From the NCBI RefSeq assembly GCF_039962115.1, contig NZ_JAMPKJ010000005.1, forward strand, positions 62,001 through 126,000: a DNA stretch of 64,000 nt, written 5' to 3'. Shown in pieces: positions 53,608 through 64,000 of the stretch (its first letter is position 1; the number at the start of each line of letters is the position of its first letter). The translations under genes and the position numbers were made by a program. This stretch comes from Funiculus sociatus GB2-C1. Its GTDB lineage: Bacteria; Cyanobacteriota; Cyanobacteriia; Cyanobacteriales; FACHB-T130. Under the pieces are notes generated by a model. It was not told where the DNA came from. It made no database searches and saw only the letters and a program-made list of their open reading frames with translations.

Positions 53608-55446
53608 ATGAGTATTGAGTCCTACAAAGCATTCGCAACAGATACCTACACCTATGTAGATTCCGCGCCAGCCGATCCAACGCGCAATTATCAAAGCATC
53701 GATGACTCAAATATCAAGCCGGTTCTTAGCAACCAGCCGGAAGTATCGCTTAGTGTCGCCGAAGCGATCGCTTCAATGCTGGAAGAATTAGGAGTAAGCT
53801 ACGCTTTTGGTGTCGCCGGGGGTGCAATGGCATCGCTTTGGGGTTCCCTGTCTAATAGCCTAATGCAGGTGCTTAACTTTCGTCATGAAAGCGGAGCCGC
53901 CTTTGCAGCCGTTGAAGCGTACTTTGCCACAGGTCGTCCAGCTGTTGTATTCACCACAGCCGGGCCAGGAATCACCAACGCGCTGACCGGACTGTTTGCA
54001 GCGCGTGGTGAGGGTGCAAAGGTGATTCTCTTGTCAGCTTGCACCACAGCACCGCAACGCGGGCGCTGGGCTATCCAAGAAACCAGCGGATACACATTGC
54101 CGAAATCCGGGATATTTAGTTCCGGCGAGTTGTTCAACTATGCAACAACTATTGAGTCTCCTGAAGAACTTCCACAGATTTTTCGCAGACTTGCTTTGGG
54201 ACTGTCACAACCGGGCGGCTTTGTCGCCCATTTGAGTATTCCCACCGGAGTGCAGACAAGTTTGGTGAATACATCTTTGCCTCGGTTAGACCTGTCTCAT
54301 TCTCTGTTCGCGCCGAGTTCCGAAGCGATCGCAAAATGCGTACAGATGCTATCACAAGGATCGTTTGCCATCTGGGTTGGCTTTGGGGCGCGGGGTGCAG
54401 CGGATGCAATTCGCCAACTGGCCGAAAAAACGGGGGCGGCTGTGATGTGTTCGCCGCGTGGTAAGGGCATCTTCCCAGAAGATCATCCACAGTTTGTCGG
54501 TGTCACAGGCTTGGGCGGTCATGCTTCCGTACTGACATATATGCAAGAGCAACCGCCTTTGCATACCCTGGTACTGGGAACGCGACTCGGCGAACCTACT
54601 TCTTTCTGGAGTAATTCGCTGGTTCCCTCTGAGGGATTCATCCATGTTGATATTGACCCGGAAGTGCCTGGGGTTGCCTATCCATTTGTGAAAACGTTGC
54701 CCGTTCAATCTGACGTAGGCGTGTTTGTAGAAGCCTTGCTGAAGCAATTGCCAGAACGCCCTAGCGGGTCAGAGGCGGTGTCCCTGCCTAATCCTGAACG
54801 GGAAGCGATCGCTCCCGGCGCAGACAGCCCAGTGCGCCCGGAAATACTCATGGATGCAATTCAACGCATCATCGTCGAAGGCAGTGATGCAATAGTAATG
54901 GCAGAGTGCGGAAACTCATTTACTTGGGCAACTCACCTGCTGCGATTTTCCCAATCAAATCGTTACCGAGTCAGCACCGGAGTTGGATCGATGGGTCATA
55001 CTGTCGCGGGTGTTGTCGGTGCAGCCCAAGCACGAAACGGCAAAGCTGTTGCCATTGTCGGAGATGGAGCCATGCTGATGAACAACGAAATCAGCACAGC
55101 TGTAAAATACCAAATTCCTGCCGTTTGGATTGTACTTAACGATGCCCGCTACAATATGTGCCACCAAGGGATGACATTGCTGGGACTCAAAGGTGCAGAT
55201 GCGGCAATTCCCCCAGCGAATTTCGTTCAGATTGCTTGCGGGATGGGAGCTGAAGGGATTCGCGTCGAAAAAGAGTCTGATCTGCAAGCGGCATTAGAGA
55301 AAGCGATCGCATCCACCGTCCCCTTCGTTGTCGATGTCGCTATCGATGCCAATCGACCTGCACCATCCAAAGGGCGTAATCAGAGTCTTGCTGCACAAGG
55401 AGCCGTATCAACCCCGGTTAAGCACCTTTCATTCCCATTAGTTTAA
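53608..55446 (+). CDS. scyA: ScyA: thiamine diphosphate-dependent acyloin synthase
   Basis: The 612-residue protein is an acetolactate synthase homologue with the N-terminal catalytic Glu94 in NFRHESGAAFAAVEAYFATG, a central domain VQTSLVNTSLPRL to TGLGGHASVLT, and the C-terminal ThDP motif beginning GDGAMLMNNEIST (485-497) and ending VLNDARYN. In N. punctiforme ScyA couples indole-3-pyruvate to 4-hydroxyphenylpyruvate, forming the acyloin precursor of scytonemin. Its N-terminal ~45 residues are an extra stretch before the first ThDP-fold domain. It starts the plus-strand arm of the cluster. Confidence 0.93.
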   Translation: MSIESYKAFATDTYTYVDSAPADPTRNYQSIDDSNIKPVLSNQPEVSLSVAEAIASMLEELGVSYAFGVAGGAMASLWGSLSNSLMQVLNFRHESGAAFAAVEAYFATGRPAVVFTTAGPGITNALTGLFAARGEGAKVILLSACTTAPQRGRWAIQETSGYTLPKSGIFSSGELFNYATTIESPEELPQIFRRLALGLSQPGGFVAHLSIPTGVQTSLVNTSLPRLDLSHSLFAPSSEAIAKCVQMLSQGSFAIWVGFGARGAADAIRQLAEKTGAAVMCSPRGKGIFPEDHPQFVGVTGLGGHASVLTYMQEQPPLHTLVLGTRLGEPTSFWSNSLVPSEGFIHVDIDPEVPGVAYPFVKTLPVQSDVGVFVEALLKQLPERPSGSEAVSLPNPEREAIAPGADSPVRPEILMDAIQRIIVEGSDAIVMAECGNSFTWATHLLRFSQSNRYRVSTGVGSMGHTVAGVVGAAQARNGKAVAIVGDGAMLMNNEISTAVKYQIPAVWIVLNDARYNMCHQGMTLLGLKGADAAIPPANFVQIACGMGAEGIRVEKESDLQAALEKAIASTVPFVVDVAIDANRPAPSKGRNQSLAAQGAVSTPVKHLSFPLV

Positions 55447-55693: not shown

Positions 55694-56755
55694 GTGAAAC
55701 TGTTTGAAACTACGAAAGAAATGGGTCATGAGCAAGTTCTCTTCTGCCATGACAAAGAATCAAATCTGAAAGCAATTATCGCCATTCATGACACCGGACT
55801 AGGTTCCGCGATGGGTGCAACACGTCTGTGGCCTTATGTAACCGAAGAAGATGCCTTGCGAGACGCACTTCGTCTTAGTCGCGGAATGACCTACAAAGCA
55901 GCCTGTGCCAACATTCCAGTCGGCGGCGGAAAAGCAGTAATTATTGCTAATCCGGAAAATAAAACCGATGAACTTTTCAGAGCCTACGGACGTTTTGTAG
56001 AAAGCCTAAACGGACGTTTTATTACCGGGCAAGATGTAAATCTTTCTCCTCAAGATGTGCGTCAAATTAGTAAAGAAACAAATCATGTTGTCGGTACTTC
56101 CGAAAAATCGGGAGGCCCAGCACCCATAACATCTATAGGAGTTCTTTTAGGAATCAAAGCTGCTACAGAGTTCCGGTTGCAAAGAAATGAACTTGCTGGG
56201 TTAAAAGTTGCAGTACAAGGACTGGGAAATGTAGGCAAGAATCTCTGTCAGCGCTTACATGAACATGACGTGAAACTCTTTGTCACTGATGTAAGTAAAG
56301 AGAAGACAGAAGAGATAAAACGTTTATATGGGGCAACCGTTGTTGAACCAAACGAAATTTACTCTCTTGATGTTGATGTTTTTGCTCCTTGTGCATTAGG
56401 AGGAATTCTTAATAGTTCCACAATTCCTCAGCTTAAAGCTCTAATTGTGGCTGGTGCTGCAAATAACCAGCTTGAAGATGAGCATATACACAGTAAACTC
56501 CTTGAATCAAAGGGAATCCTCTATTGCCCAGATTACGTAATCAACGCTGGAGGATTAATCAACGTTTACAACGAAATGATTGGATATGAGGAGGAAAAAG
56601 CTTTAAGCCAATTAAATAACATCTACAGCACTTTATTGGAAATTTTTGAGAGTGCTGAGAAAGAAGGTTATACAACTTATGAAGCTTCTAAAGTTTTGGC
56701 TGAAAAGCGAATTCTGAAAGCTAAGCATATCAAGCTTATGCAGCAAACAAATTGA
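55694..56755 (+). CDS. scyB: ScyB: Glu/Leu/Phe/Val dehydrogenase family tryptophan dehydrogenase
   Basis: The 353-residue enzyme starts at a GTG at 55694 with AGGAGA 5 bp upstream. It has the amino-acid dehydrogenase active site (Lys68 in SRGMTYKAACANIPVGGGKA, and Lys80) and the Rossmann motif VQGLGNVGKNLCQRLHE (GLGNVG at 176-181). In N. punctiforme ScyB oxidatively deaminates L-tryptophan to indole-3-pyruvate, one of the two substrates of ScyA. It is 12 bp ahead of scyC, suggesting cotranscription. Family and cluster context agree. Confidence 0.93.
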   Translation: MKLFETTKEMGHEQVLFCHDKESNLKAIIAIHDTGLGSAMGATRLWPYVTEEDALRDALRLSRGMTYKAACANIPVGGGKAVIIANPENKTDELFRAYGRFVESLNGRFITGQDVNLSPQDVRQISKETNHVVGTSEKSGGPAPITSIGVLLGIKAATEFRLQRNELAGLKVAVQGLGNVGKNLCQRLHEHDVKLFVTDVSKEKTEEIKRLYGATVVEPNEIYSLDVDVFAPCALGGILNSSTIPQLKALIVAGAANNQLEDEHIHSKLLESKGILYCPDYVINAGGLINVYNEMIGYEEEKALSQLNNIYSTLLEIFESAEKEGYTTYEASKVLAEKRILKAKHIKLMQQTN

Positions 56756-56766
56756 AGGAGTGAACC

Positions 56767-57717
56767 GTGGAAAGAAATACGTTTGCAACGTCTGCTTATA
56801 TTGCAACTTCGCCGGAGATAGCTTTTGACTACCTGTGTAGTTTAAAAAATCTGGACGAGTGGACTCTCTTCAGCCGGATGGTAGAGCAAGTTGATGAAGA
56901 TACCTGGCTGGGAACAGCATCTGGCTATCACAAAAATCTCTACTATCACGTTAAAAAACTAGAAAATCCGCTATTTTACGGTATTGAATGGCACTGCGGA
57001 TTTGAGTATCAGAAATATTTTCAAGTTTACCCTGTGTTGCTTTTTCCCGCTGACTACATTGAGCCGGGAACTGATGAAAAAGGAGTCTATTTTCACTGGC
57101 TCAGTTTTGTCGATCCAAAACGACAGACTCAGATGATTATGCAGGGAATTCATACGGTACACACTTCCGAGTGTCGTTCTCTCAAAGGTGTTTTGGAACG
57201 CAAAGCTGGTCTTACCGCAGCAGCGAAAGGGCGCTACTTTATCGATACTGACACCATCTATGTTGATGCGCCAATTGAAATCGGGGTTGAATACTTAAAA
57301 GACTTGCGGAACATAGATGAGTGGGCGCATTTACTACGACCGAATGGAGAAATAAGTCCTGAATTTGGTGAATTCAAGGATGAATATGACCAGAAGGTGA
57401 AAGTTTCTCTGAGACTGCATACTTTGAGCAAATATTACTTGCTTGAACAAGAAAATTTCTATCCAGACTACGACTTTTATCAGCGGTCTGTGGCGCTGAT
57501 AATCCCAACATCTTATGCTTTCGGAGACCCGGAAGCTCCTGGGTTCATCCTGCATCGGATTACATTTTGGAAAACAGGTGAAACTCTCGCCCACGGCAAA
57601 CTCCAGATTGAGGATTTTGGGGCTGAGAGCATGAACATTAAGCGATTCGCAGAAGCGAAAGCTGGCAACGTTAAGTCCTTTGATCGTGGGATGAGTTATG
57701 TACCAGTTAGCCATTAG
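56767..57717 (+). CDS. scyC: ScyC: scytonemin cyclase-type protein
   Basis: The 316-residue product begins MERNTFATSAYIATSPEIAF and contains two similar halves of a SRPBCC/START-like fold (IATSPEIAFDYLCSLKNLDE and VDAPIEIGVEYLKDLRNIDE). In N. punctiforme ScyC cyclises the ScyA product towards the scytonemin monomer. The GTG start at 56767 has an AAGGAG site 7 bp upstream and lies 12 bp after scyB. No membrane segment or signal is seen, so it should be cytoplasmic. The internal duplication is direct from sequence. Confidence 0.9.
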   Translation: MERNTFATSAYIATSPEIAFDYLCSLKNLDEWTLFSRMVEQVDEDTWLGTASGYHKNLYYHVKKLENPLFYGIEWHCGFEYQKYFQVYPVLLFPADYIEPGTDEKGVYFHWLSFVDPKRQTQMIMQGIHTVHTSECRSLKGVLERKAGLTAAAKGRYFIDTDTIYVDAPIEIGVEYLKDLRNIDEWAHLLRPNGEISPEFGEFKDEYDQKVKVSLRLHTLSKYYLLEQENFYPDYDFYQRSVALIIPTSYAFGDPEAPGFILHRITFWKTGETLAHGKLQIEDFGAESMNIKRFAEAKAGNVKSFDRGMSYVPVSH

Positions 57718-57924
57718 CTGTTTGCTAATAACTAAGAGGATGTTTGAAAGATCATAATCGAGACTCTTAGATGGTGGAGATCCTCCTGGCATACTTCTTA
57801 AAAAGGGGGACTAAGACTTGATTCTCCACCGTTGAAAAGGGGGCTGGGGAGATCAAACTAGCTTTTGACACTTCTGGGACATCCTCTAATTCTCAAAAAT
57901 TACTTAGAGCCAATATCGCCTGAG
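57718..57924. repeat. Repeat-rich gap between scyC and scyD
   Basis: This 207-bp gap contains dispersed CTTAAAAAGGGGGACT-type and GGGGGCTGGGG-type sequences like those within the MITE at 35581-35748, plus inverted copies of TGGTGGAGA / TCTCCACC. It separates the cytoplasmic scyABC genes from the exported scyDEF genes. Confidence 0.5.
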
Positions 57925-59196
57925 ATGAAAGTAAAGCAATTTCCTATTGCATTTCTAACTTTTTGTAGTGTCGCTGTTGTGGGAGCAAAAGCCGCAGAAG
58001 CAGTATCTTTTACAATACTTGCGGACGGTCTTGATAATGCAAAGGGTCTTAGCTTTGGCCCTGACGGTGCGCTGTATGTTACAGAGGCGGGAACGGGGGG
58101 AAACGGGGTTTGCGTTCCATCACCGAGCGCCCAAGGCGATTCTTTATGTTATGGAACAAGTGGTGCAGTAACCAAAATTGAGAATGGGACTTTCAAGCGG
58201 ATACTTACCGGACTTCCTTCGGTAGCATTACCAGACGGTACGGGAGCAGCTGGCCCTCACGATATAAAATTTGATGCCAAAGGTTCGCCTTATGTTCTGC
58301 TTGGGTATGCTGCTAATCCAGCTTTACGCGATCGCATAATCGGTGACACTGACCTTGGCAAAATCATCTCTCCCGACTTCAATACAAATTCGTGGAGCAG
58401 TATTGCAGATTTAGCTAACTATGAACTCGCTAACAATCCCGATGGCGGCGATTTAGTTAGCAATCCCTTGGATTTTCTCATAGATGGCAATAACTTTGTT
58501 GTAGTTGATGCAGGTGCGAACGACTTGCTGGGTCTAGGGATTAATGGGGACGATTTGAGAGCGATCGCGCTCCTTCCCACCCAGATATTGACTAATCCAG
58601 TCTTTCCAGGCCCTGACTCCGTACCTTTCGATCCCGGACAGGTACCTCCTCCTGATACTCTTCCTGATACACCACCATTGCAGTTTCCAGTTCAACCAGT
58701 ACCCTCAGCTGTGGCAAAAGGTTTGGATGGTGCTTATTACGTCAGCGAATTTACTGGTTTTCCTTTTCCAGAAGGTGGAGCAAAAATCTATCGTGTTGGT
58801 GCTGATGGTCAACCAACCGTCTACGCTGATGGCTTTACGCAACTAACAGACTTGGAATTCGATGCTGCGGGTAATTTGTATGCCTTGCAGTACGCCAATC
58901 AGTCAGCCTGGAAAGGTAATTTAGAGGCAAGTCTCTTCAAAATAACCCCAGATGGCGATCGCACAACTCTCCTGGGCGGTAATGGCCTAGAGTCGCCTAC
59001 TTCCCTGACTCTGGGCCCCGATGGTGCAATCTACGTCACAAATCGCGGCGGTCGCCCTGGACAAGGGCAAGTCCTAAGAATTGATCCCAAACCTGTGCCA
59101 GATCCTAGTTCTGCTATAGCCTTATTCACCCTTGGCATAGGTGTTACTCGGATGCGGAAGCGTAAATGTGCGATCGCAGATCGTCAAGTCAACTAA
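57925..59196 (+). CDS. scyD: ScyD/ScyE-family exported beta-propeller protein with PEP-CTERM-like tail (first copy)
   Basis: From the ATG at 57925 the product is 423 residues with a signal peptide (MKVKQFPIAFLTFCSVAVVG, cut near AEA). Propeller-like motifs follow: LDNAKGLSFGPDGALYVTEA, VAKGLDGAYYVSEFTGFPFP, LEFDAAGNLYALQYAN and TSLTLGPDGAIYVTNRGG. The C-terminus is a PEP-CTERM-like sorting tail: VPDPSSAIALFTLGIGVTRM then basic RKRK, with PDP in place of PEP. ScyD and ScyE homologues are needed for or linked to periplasmic steps of scytonemin formation. It is a paralogue of the next gene. Confidence 0.85.
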   Translation: MKVKQFPIAFLTFCSVAVVGAKAAEAVSFTILADGLDNAKGLSFGPDGALYVTEAGTGGNGVCVPSPSAQGDSLCYGTSGAVTKIENGTFKRILTGLPSVALPDGTGAAGPHDIKFDAKGSPYVLLGYAANPALRDRIIGDTDLGKIISPDFNTNSWSSIADLANYELANNPDGGDLVSNPLDFLIDGNNFVVVDAGANDLLGLGINGDDLRAIALLPTQILTNPVFPGPDSVPFDPGQVPPPDTLPDTPPLQFPVQPVPSAVAKGLDGAYYVSEFTGFPFPEGGAKIYRVGADGQPTVYADGFTQLTDLEFDAAGNLYALQYANQSAWKGNLEASLFKITPDGDRTTLLGGNGLESPTSLTLGPDGAIYVTNRGGRPGQGQVLRIDPKPVPDPSSAIALFTLGIGVTRMRKRKCAIADRQVN

Positions 59197-59232
59197 CAAA
59201 CTTTCATTCACTTAAATCCAACTTTGCGACAC

Positions 59233-60612
59233 ATGAAACTCAAGCAATTTACTCTGACATTTCTGATTGGTCTTACCGCTATTACCGGAACCAAAGCCGC
59301 CCAAGCTGCATCGTTGACTGTGGTTGTGGATGGAGTCAGTAACGCACGCGCTGTTAGTTTTGGTCCTGACGGTACGCTCTACGTAGCCGAGCCCGGTATC
59401 GGAGGAAATGGCAAGTGTCAGGCATCACCTAGTACGATATTTCAGCCGATCTGCGCTGGAAATAGTGGCTCAGTTGTCAAACTTACGCCAGACGGTCAGC
59501 AGTCGCGGATATTTCAAAACTTCCAGTCTCTGGCAGAACAACCCTCTGGAAATCAAGGAGCTGGTCCTCAGGATCTACAATTTGATTCTTTTGGTAATGC
59601 TTATCTTCTAACTGGGTTTGCTGGTTATCCGGGAAATCGTGATGCAGAAACAATTGCCCTTGGCGCTAATTTTCCAATCCCACCAACGCAACTCGCTACT
59701 TTCCCTCCAGCCGCACCCGATGAAGTCTTAAATACTCCTAACTTGGCAAAACTGTTCAAAGCTGATTTGGTCACACAAGAGCTAACTGAGATTTTCGACT
59801 TCGGCAAATATGAAATCATTAATAATCCTGACGGTGGAGACGTAGTTACCAATCCCTACGACTTGACTATTAGTGGCGATACTGCTTATGTCATTGATGG
59901 CGGTGGGAACGTAGCCTATAGCCTCAAACTTGATGGCAGTGATGCAAAAGCAGTTGCACTTCCTCTGAACATCATTACTAACCCACAACTTCCACCACTT
60001 CCACCAGGAGTAGAGCTTCCACCAGGGCTAGTAAACTTTCTACCTCCAGATGAAGCAGGAAACCCTCGGATCACAATTCAATCCGTACCCACTGGTGGGG
60101 CAATTGGTCCCGATGGTGCTTTATATGTTGGTGAATATTCAGGCTTTCCCTATCCACAAGATCAAGCGCGGATCTTCCGAATTGGGGAGAATGGTATACC
60201 AGAAGTTTATGCTGAAGGGTTTAACGCAATTACAGAACTAACGTTTGATAAGCAAGGCAACTTGCTAGTCTTACAGTTCAGCGACCTGTCACAGTTAACA
60301 AGTCCGAACATCCAGAACCTGCCTGGTTCTTTAATTCAACTAGCTCCTGATGGGACTCGCACAACCCTCGTCGCTGCGGGTGAAGGGCTGGAGTCGGCTG
60401 ATGGTCTTGCTATTGGTCCTGACAACCAAATTTATGTCACAACACGCGGTGTTGGACCCGGGCGAGGACAAGTCGTTCGCGTTGATACCACACCAGTTCC
60501 CGAACCCGCTTCGGTACTGGGTTTATTAGCCATTGGCACAATAACTGCTGTTACCAGAAAGGGCAACAAACAAAAACACAAAAACAGTAAAGCTTTGGCA
60601 GAGACGATCTAA
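59233..60612 (+). CDS. scyE: ScyD/ScyE-family exported beta-propeller protein with PEP-CTERM (second copy)
   Basis: From the ATG at 59233 the product is 459 residues. A signal peptide MKLKQFTLTFLIGLTAITGT ends near AQA. The same family motifs as its neighbour appear: SNARAVSFGPDGTLYVAEPG, NPDGGDVVTNPYDLTISGD, AIGPDGALYVGEYSGFPYP and DGLAIGPDNQIYVTTRG. The end is a canonical PEP-CTERM: PVPEPASVLGLLAIGTITAV then TRKGNKQK. It should be exported and then sorted or anchored by an exosortase system. It is one of two tandem family copies; a TTG at 59224 could add three residues. Confidence 0.85.
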   Translation: MKLKQFTLTFLIGLTAITGTKAAQAASLTVVVDGVSNARAVSFGPDGTLYVAEPGIGGNGKCQASPSTIFQPICAGNSGSVVKLTPDGQQSRIFQNFQSLAEQPSGNQGAGPQDLQFDSFGNAYLLTGFAGYPGNRDAETIALGANFPIPPTQLATFPPAAPDEVLNTPNLAKLFKADLVTQELTEIFDFGKYEIINNPDGGDVVTNPYDLTISGDTAYVIDGGGNVAYSLKLDGSDAKAVALPLNIITNPQLPPLPPGVELPPGLVNFLPPDEAGNPRITIQSVPTGGAIGPDGALYVGEYSGFPYPQDQARIFRIGENGIPEVYAEGFNAITELTFDKQGNLLVLQFSDLSQLTSPNIQNLPGSLIQLAPDGTRTTLVAAGEGLESADGLAIGPDNQIYVTTRGVGPGRGQVVRVDTTPVPEPASVLGLLAIGTITAVTRKGNKQKHKNSKALAETI

Positions 60613-60715: not shown

Positions 60716-61876
60716 ATGGGATTACTAAAAAATCTTTCAATTGCCATTCTCAGTACCGGATTTATAGTTGCAGCAGCAGCTGAAGCCAAATCACTAACCT
60801 TAACCTACGAGCGTAGTATTGGCAGTCCTGGTTTCGGCCCTGGGCAGCTGTTTGTTCCCCAAGGCATAGCAGTGGATGCCTCCGGGAATACCCTCATCAG
60901 TAACGGTCGCGGTCTTAACCCAGACGGCAGTTTTAACCCGGACATCGGTAACAAAGTTGAAGTCTTCGACCCTCAAGGTAACTATATAGGAGCAATTGGC
61001 GAGGGCGGCAAAGGCCCCGGACAATTCGACGAGCCATCAGCTTTAGAAATCGATCCGGATACTGGGAATTTATATGTAGGGGATGTTTTCAACAACCGCG
61101 TTAATGTCTACGATCCCCAAGGTAATTTTATTAACTCCTTTGGCTCATTTGCCGGACTCATACCCGGTAGGGCTTTCTTTGGCCCATCTGGTGTGACATT
61201 CGACAAAGCTGGCAATGTGTATGTGGGTGATTTTAGCGGCGACAAGATCAACAAATACACTAAGGACGGCGAGCTAATCGGTTCCATTGGCAGCTCTGGA
61301 ACCGAACCTGGGCAGTTCCAAGGGCCAGCAGGTTTAAGAATTTCCCCAGTTAGTGGAAATTTCTTTGTGAGTGATCAGTTTAACAACCGCGTTCAGGTAC
61401 TCGATCCAGAAGGTAATCCTATCTTGACATTTGGCAAACAAGGCACCGGGCCTGGAGAGTTTAATCAGCCAATTGGCCTAGAAGTGGACGAGTTTGAGAA
61501 TATTTATGTGGCTGATTCTATCAACAGCCGCGTTCAGGTATTCGATAAAAACGGTAACTTCCTCACTGCATTTGGTTCAGCTGTCGCAGCACCACCTCCC
61601 CAATTAGGTGAGCCACCCTTTGGCAACCCCCTCGACCTCTCACCAGGGAAATTTAACTGGACGGCTGGCACAAGCTACAAAGATGACAAACTCTATGTGG
61701 GCGATTTCTTCCAAGGTCGCGTCCAGGTGTTAAACATAGACAGAACCGCAGTACCTGAACCTTCCTCCGTATTGAGTTTAGCGTTCCTGGGGATTGGAGC
61801 GGCGGCGACATTGAGAAAACGACAACAAAAGTCAGTCATCAATTTGACAACCGATCGCGATCGCACTGCTGTTTAG
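60716..61876 (+). CDS. scyF: ScyF: NHL-repeat exported protein with PEP-CTERM
   Basis: The 386-residue protein has a signal peptide (MGLLKNLSIAILSTGFIVAA, cut near AEA) and five or so NHL repeats: GQLFVPQGIAVDASGNTLIS, GPGQFDEPSALEIDPDTGNL, YVGDVFNNRVNVYDPQGNFI, QFQGPAGLRISPVSGNFF and GEFNQPIGLEVDEFENIYVA, forming a six-bladed propeller. It ends VPEPSSVLSLAFLGIGAAAT then LRKRQQK, a PEP-CTERM tail. ScyF is the N. punctiforme equivalent found after scyE. It may act on or bind scytonemin in the periplasm; the reaction is not known. Confidence 0.88.
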   Translation: MGLLKNLSIAILSTGFIVAAAAEAKSLTLTYERSIGSPGFGPGQLFVPQGIAVDASGNTLISNGRGLNPDGSFNPDIGNKVEVFDPQGNYIGAIGEGGKGPGQFDEPSALEIDPDTGNLYVGDVFNNRVNVYDPQGNFINSFGSFAGLIPGRAFFGPSGVTFDKAGNVYVGDFSGDKINKYTKDGELIGSIGSSGTEPGQFQGPAGLRISPVSGNFFVSDQFNNRVQVLDPEGNPILTFGKQGTGPGEFNQPIGLEVDEFENIYVADSINSRVQVFDKNGNFLTAFGSAVAAPPPQLGEPPFGNPLDLSPGKFNWTAGTSYKDDKLYVGDFFQGRVQVLNIDRTAVPEPSSVLSLAFLGIGAAATLRKRQQKSVINLTTDRDRTAV

Positions 61877-62009
61877 CAACTAAACATGAGACAGAAGCGG
61901 GGAGTATTGAAAAACCGAACACAAGCGTCATAAAGCAAGTGAAGGTTTGTCTTTTTGATGTTCCTCCGTCTCTAACAAATTTTTCCCTAAAATAAGAGGA
62001 CTATTACTG

Positions 62010-64000
62010 ATGGACGCAAATGAATCCAGGGGTAGCAACCCGTTTGCTGGTGGCAACCCATCATCTACTGGTAACAGCAACCCAAATAGCGGTGGCACCT
62101 TGCCTCGGCAATCACCCTTTGATCGGCTGTCTGTAGTTCTTGGTGATAACTCACCCTTTGGTGGAAGCGGTTCTCCTACAGGTGGTAATTCCTTTAACGA
62201 CCTACCCTATGGTGGCAACCCGTTTGCTGGTGACAATCTCTTCACTATCTTCGGTGGCGGTGCCAACCCCCTGAGTCGTAGCAACTCATCTACTGGTGGA
62301 AGCAATCCATTTGCTGGTGGCGGCGGAAGCAATCCATTCGCTGGTGGTAGCGGCAGTGGAAGTAATCCATTCGCTGGCGGCGGTAGTGGCGGCGGAAGCA
62401 ACCCGTTTGCTGGTGGCGGTGGAAGCAACCCGTTTGCTGGCGGCGGCGGAAGCAATCCTTTTGCTGGCGGTAGTGGCGGAAGTAATCCTTTTGCTGGCGG
62501 TAGCGGCGGTGGAAGTAATCCGTTTGCTGGTGGCGGTAGTGGTGGCGGAAGCAATCCGTTCGCTGGTGGCGGTACTGGCGGTGGAAGCAACCCGTTTGCT
62601 GGCGGCGGTACTGGCGGTGGAAGCAACCCGTTTGCTGGCGGCGGTAGTGGCGGCGGAAGCAACCCGTTTGCTGGTGGCGGCGGAAGCAATCCGTTCGCTG
62701 GTGGCGGTGGAAGTAATCCATTTGCTGGTGGCGGTGGAAGCAACCCGTTTGCTGGCGGCGGTACTGGCGGTGGAAGCAACCCGTTTGCTGGCGGCGGTAC
62801 TGGCGGCGGAAGCAACCCGTTTGCTGGCAGCGGTAGTGGCGGTGGAAGTAACCCGTTTGCTGGTGGCGGTACTGGCGGTGGAAGCAATCCGTTCGCTGGC
62901 GGCAGTAGTGGCGGTGGAAGTAACCCGGTTGCTGGCGGCGGCGGAAGCAATCCGTTCGCTGGTGGCGGTGGAAGCAATCCGGTTGCTGGTGGCGGCGGAA
63001 GCAATCCGTTCGCTGGCGGCGGCGGAAGCAACCCGTTTGCTGGTGGCGGTACTGGCGGTGGAAGCAATCCTTTTGCTGGCGGTAGTGGCGGTGGAAGTAA
63101 CCCGTTCGCTGGTGGCGGCGGAAGCAATCCTTTTGCTGGCGGTAGTGGCGGCGGAAGCAATCCTTTTGCTGGCGGTAGTGGCGGCGGAAGTAACCCGTTT
63201 GCTGGCGGCGGTGGAAGTAACCCGTTTGCTGGCGGCGGTAGTGGCGGTGGAAGCAATCCTTTTGCTGGCGGTAGTGGCGGTGGAAGTAACCCGTTTGCTG
63301 GTGGCGGTGACGTATCGTTCAATAGTAGTAACGCACCCATTGGGAATGGTAACAGGGACATCGGAAGGGATAACGCAACCATCGGCAATGGTAATTCGGA
63401 CTTCAGTAGCGACAACGCAACCATTGGTAATGGTAATTGGCAATTTGGAAGCGATAACGCAACCATCGGTAATGGTAACTGGCATTGGGACGGAAGTAGC
63501 GACAATGCAACCATTGGCAATGGCAATTGGTATTTAGACTACGTTAGCGATAACGCAACCTTGGGTAATGGTAATTGGCACTTCGGAAGCAATAACTCAA
63601 CTATCGGTAACGGTAACTGGGACTTCGGAAGTAACAACACGGTCATTGGTAATGGCAATTGGCTGTTCACCAGTAATAACACAGTCGTTGGTAATGGCAA
63701 TTGGCTAGTTGATGGTGACAACATCACCAGCCCGGAGACATTATTGCCAGAGATAAAGACTACTGTTGACGACTTGATTAACTCCCTCATGGGCAAGATT
63801 GGTGAAGACTTTATTGGGTTAACAGGCAATTTAGTGGAATCGGAAAGTCAGACGTTTAACCGACTCATCCTTGCCAAAGATACTGGTACTAATGACGGTA
63901 ATGTTCAGTCTGTACCTGAGCCTGGATTTTCAACACCGCTGGTAGTGCTGGGACTCTCATTTTTACTGTATTCAAGGTTCAAAAAGCGGAGTAGACAGAA
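62010..64000 (+). CDS. Very repetitive PEP-CTERM protein (SNPFAGG and IGNGNW repeats), partial
   Basis: The frame of the ATG at 62010 stays open to the end of the window (about 663 codons). Residues 1-97 are Gly/Ser/Asn rich. From 62300 to ~63305 come about 32 repeats of the form GSNPFAGG plus variable Gly/Ser/Thr. From ~63318 to 63720 nine IGNGN(W) repeats follow (DNATIGNGNW). After a short helical segment (LLPEIKTTVDDLINSLMGK) the protein ends with VPEPGFSTPLVVLGLSFLLY and basic RFKKR, a PEP-CTERM tail. No N-terminal signal peptide is obvious. It follows scyF by 133 bp in the same direction. I do not recognise the family; an extracellular sheath or pigment-associated structural role is only inference. 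Confidence 0.8.
   Translation, partial: MDANESRGSNPFAGGNPSSTGNSNPNSGGTLPRQSPFDRLSVVLGDNSPFGGSGSPTGGNSFNDLPYGGNPFAGDNLFTIFGGGANPLSRSNSSTGGSNPFAGGGGSNPFAGGSGSGSNPFAGGGSGGGSNPFAGGGGSNPFAGGGGSNPFAGGSGGSNPFAGGSGGGSNPFAGGGSGGGSNPFAGGGTGGGSNPFAGGGTGGGSNPFAGGGSGGGSNPFAGGGGSNPFAGGGGSNPFAGGGGSNPFAGGGTGGGSNPFAGGGTGGGSNPFAGSGSGGGSNPFAGGGTGGGSNPFAGGSSGGGSNPVAGGGGSNPFAGGGGSNPVAGGGGSNPFAGGGGSNPFAGGGTGGGSNPFAGGSGGGSNPFAGGGGSNPFAGGSGGGSNPFAGGSGGGSNPFAGGGGSNPFAGGGSGGGSNPFAGGSGGGSNPFAGGGDVSFNSSNAPIGNGNRDIGRDNATIGNGNSDFSSDNATIGNGNWQFGSDNATIGNGNWHWDGSSDNATIGNGNWYLDYVSDNATLGNGNWHFGSNNSTIGNGNWDFGSNNTVIGNGNWLFTSNNTVVGNGNWLVDGDNITSPETLLPEIKTTVDDLINSLMGKIGEDFIGLTGNLVESESQTFNRLILAKDTGTNDGNVQSVPEPGFSTPLVVLGLSFLLYSRFKKRSRQ
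62300..63305 (+). repeat. Tandem SNPFAGG-coding repeats (about 32 units)
   Basis: About 32 units share a GGAAGCAA(T/C)CC(N)TT(T/C)GCTGG core, with spacers of 0-4 extra codons (GGGG, GSGG, GTGG). Two units have Val for Phe. Codon usage differs between units, and the array is open in several frames on both strands. Confidence 0.9.
63318..63720 (+). repeat. IGNGN(W)-coding repeats (9 units)
   Basis: Nine imperfect units of ~14-18 residues with consensus DNATIGNGNWxFGS follow the SNPFAGG array. The asymmetric G-N spacing looks like a beta-solenoid-type repeat, different from the disordered SNPFAGG part. Confidence 0.8.

Follow-up and report, generated by a model that had tools for sequence, protein, structure and literature searches.

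The window analysed here, a stretch of 64,000 nucleotides from Funiculus sociatus GB2-C1, runs at its 3' edge into a gene of 667 codons for a repeat protein, directly downstream of the scytonemin gene scyF. This repeat gene belongs to a conserved family whose genes lie in the scytonemin locus or are inherited together with it. The family architecture combines short conserved motifs with a length-variable Gly/Phe array, a predicted beta-roll, most coils of which carry aromatic residues, and a helical cap, followed in about five of eight relatives by a hydrophobic PEP-CTERM-type C-terminal tail. Our favoured reading, held tentatively and somewhat short of probable, is that the repeat protein serves the scytonemin system as an accessory structural protein, concerned with pigment handling or deposition; a surface location and pigment binding are what we infer. 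No described protein that retains scytonemin outside the cell is known to us, and our literature searches found none. How scytonemin reaches the sheath from the periplasm and stays there is an open question, and its route across the outer membrane is called undefined in the available text of PMC12188702. The family provides a concrete, testable candidate that occurs in many genomes carrying scytonemin genes, some of them from lineages distant from Nostoc punctiforme.

The association with scytonemin is strong, both by presence and by place. In a sample of 291 genomes of the order, searched with the C-terminal 234 residues of the window protein, strong matches occurred in several families. scyF was found in 18 of these genomes (E <= 1e-60), and the repeat family in 17/18 scyF-positive versus 2/273 scyF-negative genomes at E <= 1e-10, a cut-off set by eye that leaves G246 (1.2e-9), G134 and G174 just outside. 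Because the matches of G065 and G264 are of a paralogous TGNGNW type, the strict count is 15/18; the match of G254 has an internal stop, and G247 is a 65% complete genome with the gene near a contig end. At a looser E <= 0.01, 69/291 genomes match, mostly through short low-complexity pieces. The same pattern was observed in the 217 genomes of taxonomic family f33, apparently the Nostocaceae, where the gene is present in 100/119 scyF-positive versus 3/98 scyF-negative genomes (E <= 1e-15; the count includes G369 on a weak match of 1.7e-16 whose place is not listed). Fisher values for the two tables are 1e-37 and 2e-24, and overstate independence since the genomes are related by descent. Co-occurrence with scytonemin clusters, which the earlier note had proposed as a check, is thus borne out by both tables, and the homologues widespread in scytonemin-negative genomes that it had named as the opposite outcome did not emerge. 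One of the three scyF-negative carriers in f33, G468, has scyC on the same contig as the family gene (G468:C2), at a distance of about 10 kb, with no scyF match, and the other two, G375 and G409, have no scyC match. Presence and absence also track scyF within genera. In g127 the only scyF-positive genome has the gene and the seven listed scyF-negative genomes are without it; in g128 the gene is found in 6/6 scyF-positive genomes and is missing from the one listed scyF-negative genome. A sample of 291 genomes of the class yielded the family in two (E <= 1e-12) and scyF in four, G228 and G671 having scyF only. Of the f33 matches, that of G264 is a C-terminal remnant: the gene is reduced to a short piece in a 113-residue open frame, some 18 kb from scyF (G264:C3:4405337-4405609).

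The gene also tends to lie near the cluster. In f33, 47/100 gene-scyF pairs share a contig, and 37 of them are within 40 kb, at distances of 14.4-29.0 kb (median 21.3 kb). Linkage counts are lower bounds, since contig ends truncate many of the loci. A second scan, of named genomes, used patterns derived from the repeats and found 91 relatives; 80 loci were retained, none of them from N. punctiforme ATCC 29133. The relatives come from Nostoc, Calothrix, Scytonema, Rivularia, Brasilonema, Aliterella, Chlorogloea, Chroococcus, Microseira and others, genera that include many scytonemin producers. Half of the named loci (40/80) contain one or more scy, ebo, trp, aro or tyrP genes like those of the window cluster. 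Six of the 40 have scy genes and seven have ebo genes, one ebo locus being without scy; about 30 others hold trp/aro genes, mostly two or more and in three cases a single one. Two loci with only a regulator-like match were left out of this count, in which housekeeping trp/aro copies were not excluded locus by locus. Several placements occur: the gene lies between scyF and eboA in six genomes (G092, G164, G185, G205 and, by coordinates, G048 and G225); beside eboA in G247, on a contig that starts just before the gene and is without scyF; and after cluster-type trpE, C, A, B, aroG and trpD in G147, G160 and G196, 35 kb from scyF in G147 and G196. At one locus an HpsJ-like, cyanoexosortase A-associated gene (L053:7490-8194; 212.1 bits, cut-off 140) stands between trpD and the family genes, and a similar gene occupies the same place in L054 and L055, as judged by eye. 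In G065, five tandem Gly-rich family-like genes, one of them with GNGNW repeats, lie directly 5' of scyA (L056:9342-13072).

Relatives in both the order sample and the named genomes rule out an orphan gene. The family is often accompanied by a sibling: in 58/83 repeat-gene frames, a few of which are truncated or begin internally, a frame with motifs like QSPFG and YGGNPFAGDNFWNIFAGGVNP ends at most 2.5 kb upstream. A sibling-type N-terminus and a beta-roll are joined in one protein in the window gene, Microseira and UBA11371. Two genes of N. punctiforme were considered as the same gene and set aside on their published descriptions in the available texts, a glycosyltransferase for NpR1270 and two transmembrane domains for NpR1259. 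The latter, the last gene of unknown function in the N. punctiforme scytonemin cluster (PMC2726228), resembles the repeat family in place, since in some genomes the family also stands after the trp/aro genes; it differs by that description alone, the repeat family showing only a C-terminal hydrophobic stretch. The family is unmentioned in the available parts of four scytonemin papers (PMC2726228, PMC4870267, PMC12188702 and PMC6282210), in which the PEP-CTERM proteins named for the locus are ScyD, ScyE and ScyF; a term search of the accessible part of PMC9796282 was without match. Four motif strings of the protein had no match in the literature outside subscription papers and supplements. The family is not named in Pfam, NCBIfam or PHROGs, and may have been described earlier in subscription papers or supplements.

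The repeat protein falls into five parts: an N-terminal module, a SNPFAGG array, xGNGN repeats, a helical cap and a PEP-CTERM-like tail. The N-terminal module (62010..62300, + strand; QSPFxxL ... PYGGNPFAGDNxxxIFxGGxNP) carries motifs common to the sibling genes of other genomes in an alignment of 28 sequences, and is predicted by AlphaFold2 to be disordered (mean predicted local distance difference test, pLDDT, 54.5). The array (62301..63308, +; residues 98-433) contains 30 exact SNPFAGG, or 33 when SNP[FV]AG is counted, in good agreement with the roughly 32 repeats first noted; the spacing is 9, 11 or 12 residues (10 in one case), Gly makes up 46%, and Tandem Repeats Finder scores reach 1157. 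A flexible low-complexity region, as the earlier note had it, is plausible, the pLDDT above applying to the N-terminal module and not to the array. The nine repeats described there as IGNGNW are indeed nine xGNGN repeats, of which only seven end in W; the first ends in R and the second in S. The array varies in number: the repeat protein of a same-species genome, G005, has 536 residues and 20 SNPFAGG, and the copy number in the window gene is a draft-assembly value. Outside the array, G005 and the window differ by 7.5 synonymous and 5.5 non-synonymous changes over the C-terminal 234 codons (pS, the synonymous proportion, 0.05; pN, the non-synonymous proportion, 0.01) and by 6 and 1 over the 97 N-terminal codons (pS 0.081, pN 0.005), rates that rest on few and mostly synonymous differences, 13 and 7 respectively. 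The array varies in length, and the remainder of the protein looks constrained.

The xGNGN part is confidently predicted to form a beta-roll of 14 residues per coil, with two coils of 16 (63330..63722, +), which upholds the solenoid-like repeats proposed at the outset. AlphaFold2, run on window positions 63306-63998 with a 45-row alignment, gave a model with a mean pLDDT of 81.8 and a predicted template modelling score of 0.74; 10-residue blocks score 91-97 over residues 21-130, and each predicted coil comprises two short strands. The helical cap that follows (63744..63866, +; VDDLINSLMGKIGEDF...QTFNRLILA) is modelled as two helices, at 147-167 and 178-187. Among solved structures the closest to this predicted model by VIA-align is the ryegrass (Lolium perenne) ice-binding protein 3ULT (Z 16.3, root-mean-square deviation 1.0 A, 112 aligned residues, 28% identity), followed by adhesin heads, UspA1 (Z 14.4), AtaA (13.7), BoaA (12.0) and YadA (11.9) as well as CbpF, and then by left-handed-helix acyltransferases (Z about 10). 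Foldseek alone ranks the adhesin CbpF at the top (E 0.001), with 3ULT in ninth place (E 0.036); a sequence search for solved relatives returned none. The coil table comprises 146 stretches of 14 residues; it omits 81 spacings of 16, and its start pattern also caught half-coils (261 spacings of 7). In this table N1, G5, N6 and N8 are conserved at 95-100%, position 4 is I, L or V in 99%, position 9 is W in 68% and position 11 is F or Y in 89%. The trimeric autotransporter adhesin heads (YadA, UspA1, BoaA) thus share a parallel beta-roll with the model, but the repeat protein has no autotransporter anchor family (Pfam, E <= 1), and lacks an N-terminal hydrophobic segment, its C-terminal tail being PEP-CTERM-like. 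No Pfam family matches the window protein at E <= 1, and NCBIfam yields only Heimdall-CTERM (E 0.3). More generally, beyond the tail the protein is not covered by any family of Pfam, NCBIfam or PHROGs, save single weak matches in one relative each (in Pfam, CBM39 at E 0.008, DP-EP at 0.0096, DUF4962 and GA); PHROGs phage families gave none for the four proteins tested. The statement that no characterised protein of this design is known holds for the protein beyond its tail and for the motif strings, but not for the IGNGNW fold, which is already known.

At the C-terminus, a PEP motif, a hydrophobic helix and a basic end are all visible in the order VPEPGF, hydrophobic stretch, RFKKR (63913..64000, +; low-confidence AlphaFold2 helix at 211-230). 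The PEP-CTERM tail of the earlier note can be read in these features, but the window protein reaches no PEP-CTERM model at E <= 1 (TIGR02595, PF07589), and its relatives match weakly at E <= 0.1 (6/16 for TIGR02595, 7/45 for PF07589). ScyD, ScyE and ScyF share with the repeat protein the locus, the direction and a C-terminal VPEP-like motif with hydrophobic helix and basic end; the repeat protein differs in having no signal peptide-like N-terminus and no NHL or ScyD/ScyE domain, with the low-complexity array and beta-roll instead. Hydrophobicity was scanned as the Kyte-Doolittle 15-residue maximum over the N-terminal 45 residues, which is 0.09 for the window protein versus 2.13, 1.57 and 2.17 for ScyD, ScyE and ScyF, so that the sorting signal said to be common with scyD-F is shared in its C-terminal half but not in its N-terminal half. 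As a cut-off of 1.6 misses the ScyE N-terminus (1.57) and the ScyD tail (1.45), a second cut-off of 1.2 was used; a C-terminal hydrophobic tail is present in 52/83 relatives at 1.6 and in 53/83 at 1.2.

A signal peptide hidden upstream of the window-gene start is ruled out: an in-frame stop lies at 61956-61958, with no ATG, GTG or TTG between it and the start codon at 62010. A Shine-Dalgarno-like AGAGGA stands at 61995..62000 (+), and AGGAG-type sequences occur shortly 5' of the start in many family genes. These ribosome-binding-site-like sequences at short starts support the short N-terminus, and judged from sequence a hidden signal peptide seems unlikely in the relatives as well; the hydrophobic N-terminus of L078 is due to a mechanical open reading frame start, its near relative L079 starting MATNES. 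PEP-CTERM proteins generally have an N-terminal signal peptide, 97% of them after start-site re-analysis, according to the available part of PMC1569441. The family therefore poses a puzzle, since its PEP-CTERM-like tails belong to proteins that have no signal peptide. Since the N-terminal hydrophobic segment is missing, export is unproven, and the case for a surface location comes from the tail by itself: either some unknown route exports the protein, or a tail-anchored scaffold stays inside. The host genome encodes cyanoexosortase B (TIGR04156, 474.9 bits, cut-off 300). In N. punctiforme this enzyme, CrtB, is required for scytonemin, and ScyF was detected in the exoproteome of 2/3 wild-type versus 0/3 crtB-mutant replicates (available text of PMC12188702).

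Under the favoured reading of an accessory structural protein, the tail would hold the protein at the inner membrane or hand it to cyanoexosortase B, the array would serve as a sticky, spaced tether, and the beta-roll would offer a regular repeating surface binding scytonemin or sheath polysaccharide, so that pigment made by ScyE might then be collected, oriented or kept in place. We regard as rather improbable a dedicated scytonemin scaffold, in which an aromatic ladder on the beta-roll would stack the flat pigment and the Phe/Gly array would gel it into the sheath, with an exit free of any signal peptide and the sibling as partner. The fusion of a rigid beta-roll to a Gly/Phe array that varies in nature may be of interest for pigment-binding materials.

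Several results weigh against an accessory role in pigment handling, and other explanations draw on some of them. The common fold shows no ligand. The gene is missing from 19/119 scyF-positive f33 genomes, 14 of them in genus g87; all 19 have scyC, and the sibling is also absent from 16 of them and kept in three. G671, a genome of the class that falls outside the order, carries scyF and scyC without the family. A gene missing from 19 of 119 scyF-positive genomes is accessory, not required. Distance from the cluster (10/47 same-contig pairs lie more than 40 kb from scyF) and the adhesin-type matches listed above would suit a matrix protein of general sheath or adhesin-like type that is inherited together with scytonemin genes because the producers have sheaths, and that does not act on the pigment. 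In many Nostoc genomes the gene is away from scy, 37/80 named loci hold neither a cluster gene nor an ebo gene (incomplete contigs not separated), and G167, G239, G277 and G173 show no cluster gene within the 19 kb read. This reading is somewhat unlikely in our estimate, given the tracking of scyF within g127 and g128 and the several different placements inside the scytonemin cluster. The closest solved structure, 3ULT, invites an ice-binding or desiccation role, as does PF21300 (LbR_Ice_bind), which is found at E 0.037 in 1/45 relatives. The roll of the window protein is nevertheless far under the PF21300 cut-off (6.9 versus 30 bits); its coil aromatics, fused array, helical cap and membrane tail set it apart from the ryegrass protein, as do an unrelated organism and genes. 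The distribution tracks scytonemin genes, no comparison with cold habitats having been made, and we consider such a role very improbable.

The signal-peptide question bears on whether the protein leaves the cell at all. By the N-terminal scan 81/83 relatives fall below 1.2 and 82/83 below 1.6, and 30-31/83 have no hydrophobic tail, findings that tell against the surface or sheath location first proposed. They would fit a tail-anchored scaffold on the cytoplasmic side, in which the Phe-spaced, Gly-rich array and the short motifs would condense ScyA-C or tether them, passing monomer on to the Ebo system at the inner membrane, with nothing exported. Short N-termini preceded by ribosome-binding-site-like sequences, conserved motifs within a module predicted to be disordered, and the position between scyF and ebo in six genomes are consistent with such a scaffold. 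We nonetheless judge it unlikely: a VPEP motif and basic end, kept in many relatives, fit a periplasm-facing protein, the adjoining ScyD-F have export signals, and beta-rolls of the adhesin type function outside cells. In its favour, the accessible part of PMC6282210 reports that ScyA and ScyC partitioned as cytoplasmic, and holds the Ebo system to move monomer out.

Within the window the repeat gene occupies 62010..64000 (+), and its stop at 64013 was read from the host genome, 13 bases beyond the edge; the frame said to run to the window end is real, although the gene does not end there. Tandem Repeats Finder scores and a family spanning many genera rule out a chance or artefactual frame. 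The array is also overlapped by long open frames at 62207-63526 and 62296-63537, which use the opposite strand and a different + frame and seem to be side effects of the repeat codons. Upstream and in the same direction lie scyA (53608..55446; NF035923, 1118.3 bits, cut-off 1020), scyB (55694..56755; NF035922, 670.6, cut-off 600), scyC (56767..57717; NF035924, 620.7, cut-off 400), scyD (57865..59196) and scyE (59224..60612), both named from gene order (NF033206 ScyD/ScyE family, 394.9 and 372.9, cut-off 80), and scyF (60716..61876; NF035926, 627.8, cut-off 350), all on the + strand, the last separated from the repeat gene by 133 bases. NCBIfam equivalog cut-offs are reached by scyA, B, C and F, and the ScyD/ScyE subfamily cut-off by scyD and scyE. 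The ebo genes lie upstream of scyA on the opposite strand, EboA scoring above its cut-off, and the next gene 3' of the repeat gene is a fused trpE/G (TIGR01815, 1197.9 bits, cut-off 739). A scan for promoters and terminators found sites no commoner than in shuffles, so that neither an operon nor an own promoter is shown for the repeat gene.

Some further observations concern related genes. A second, paralogous type has TGNGNW-like repeats and a C-terminus of Y-x-F type, without a PEP-CTERM tail (L057, L058, L059, L060, L061 and L127:9549-10757); L057-L061 have no scy gene within the 19 kb read, and L059 has a cluster-like aroG (82%). In Microseira wollei (G092), a stop codon inside the PEP motif removes the tail of one copy (L050:8966-10006), and the L049 copy, 91% identical, keeps it. 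Outside the window, the host tyrosinase gene of the scytonemin cluster (L002:11419-12714) encodes a PEP-CTERM tail (NCBIfam, 21.7 bits, cut-off 16), which makes the tyrosinase a further PEP-CTERM protein of the scytonemin locus.

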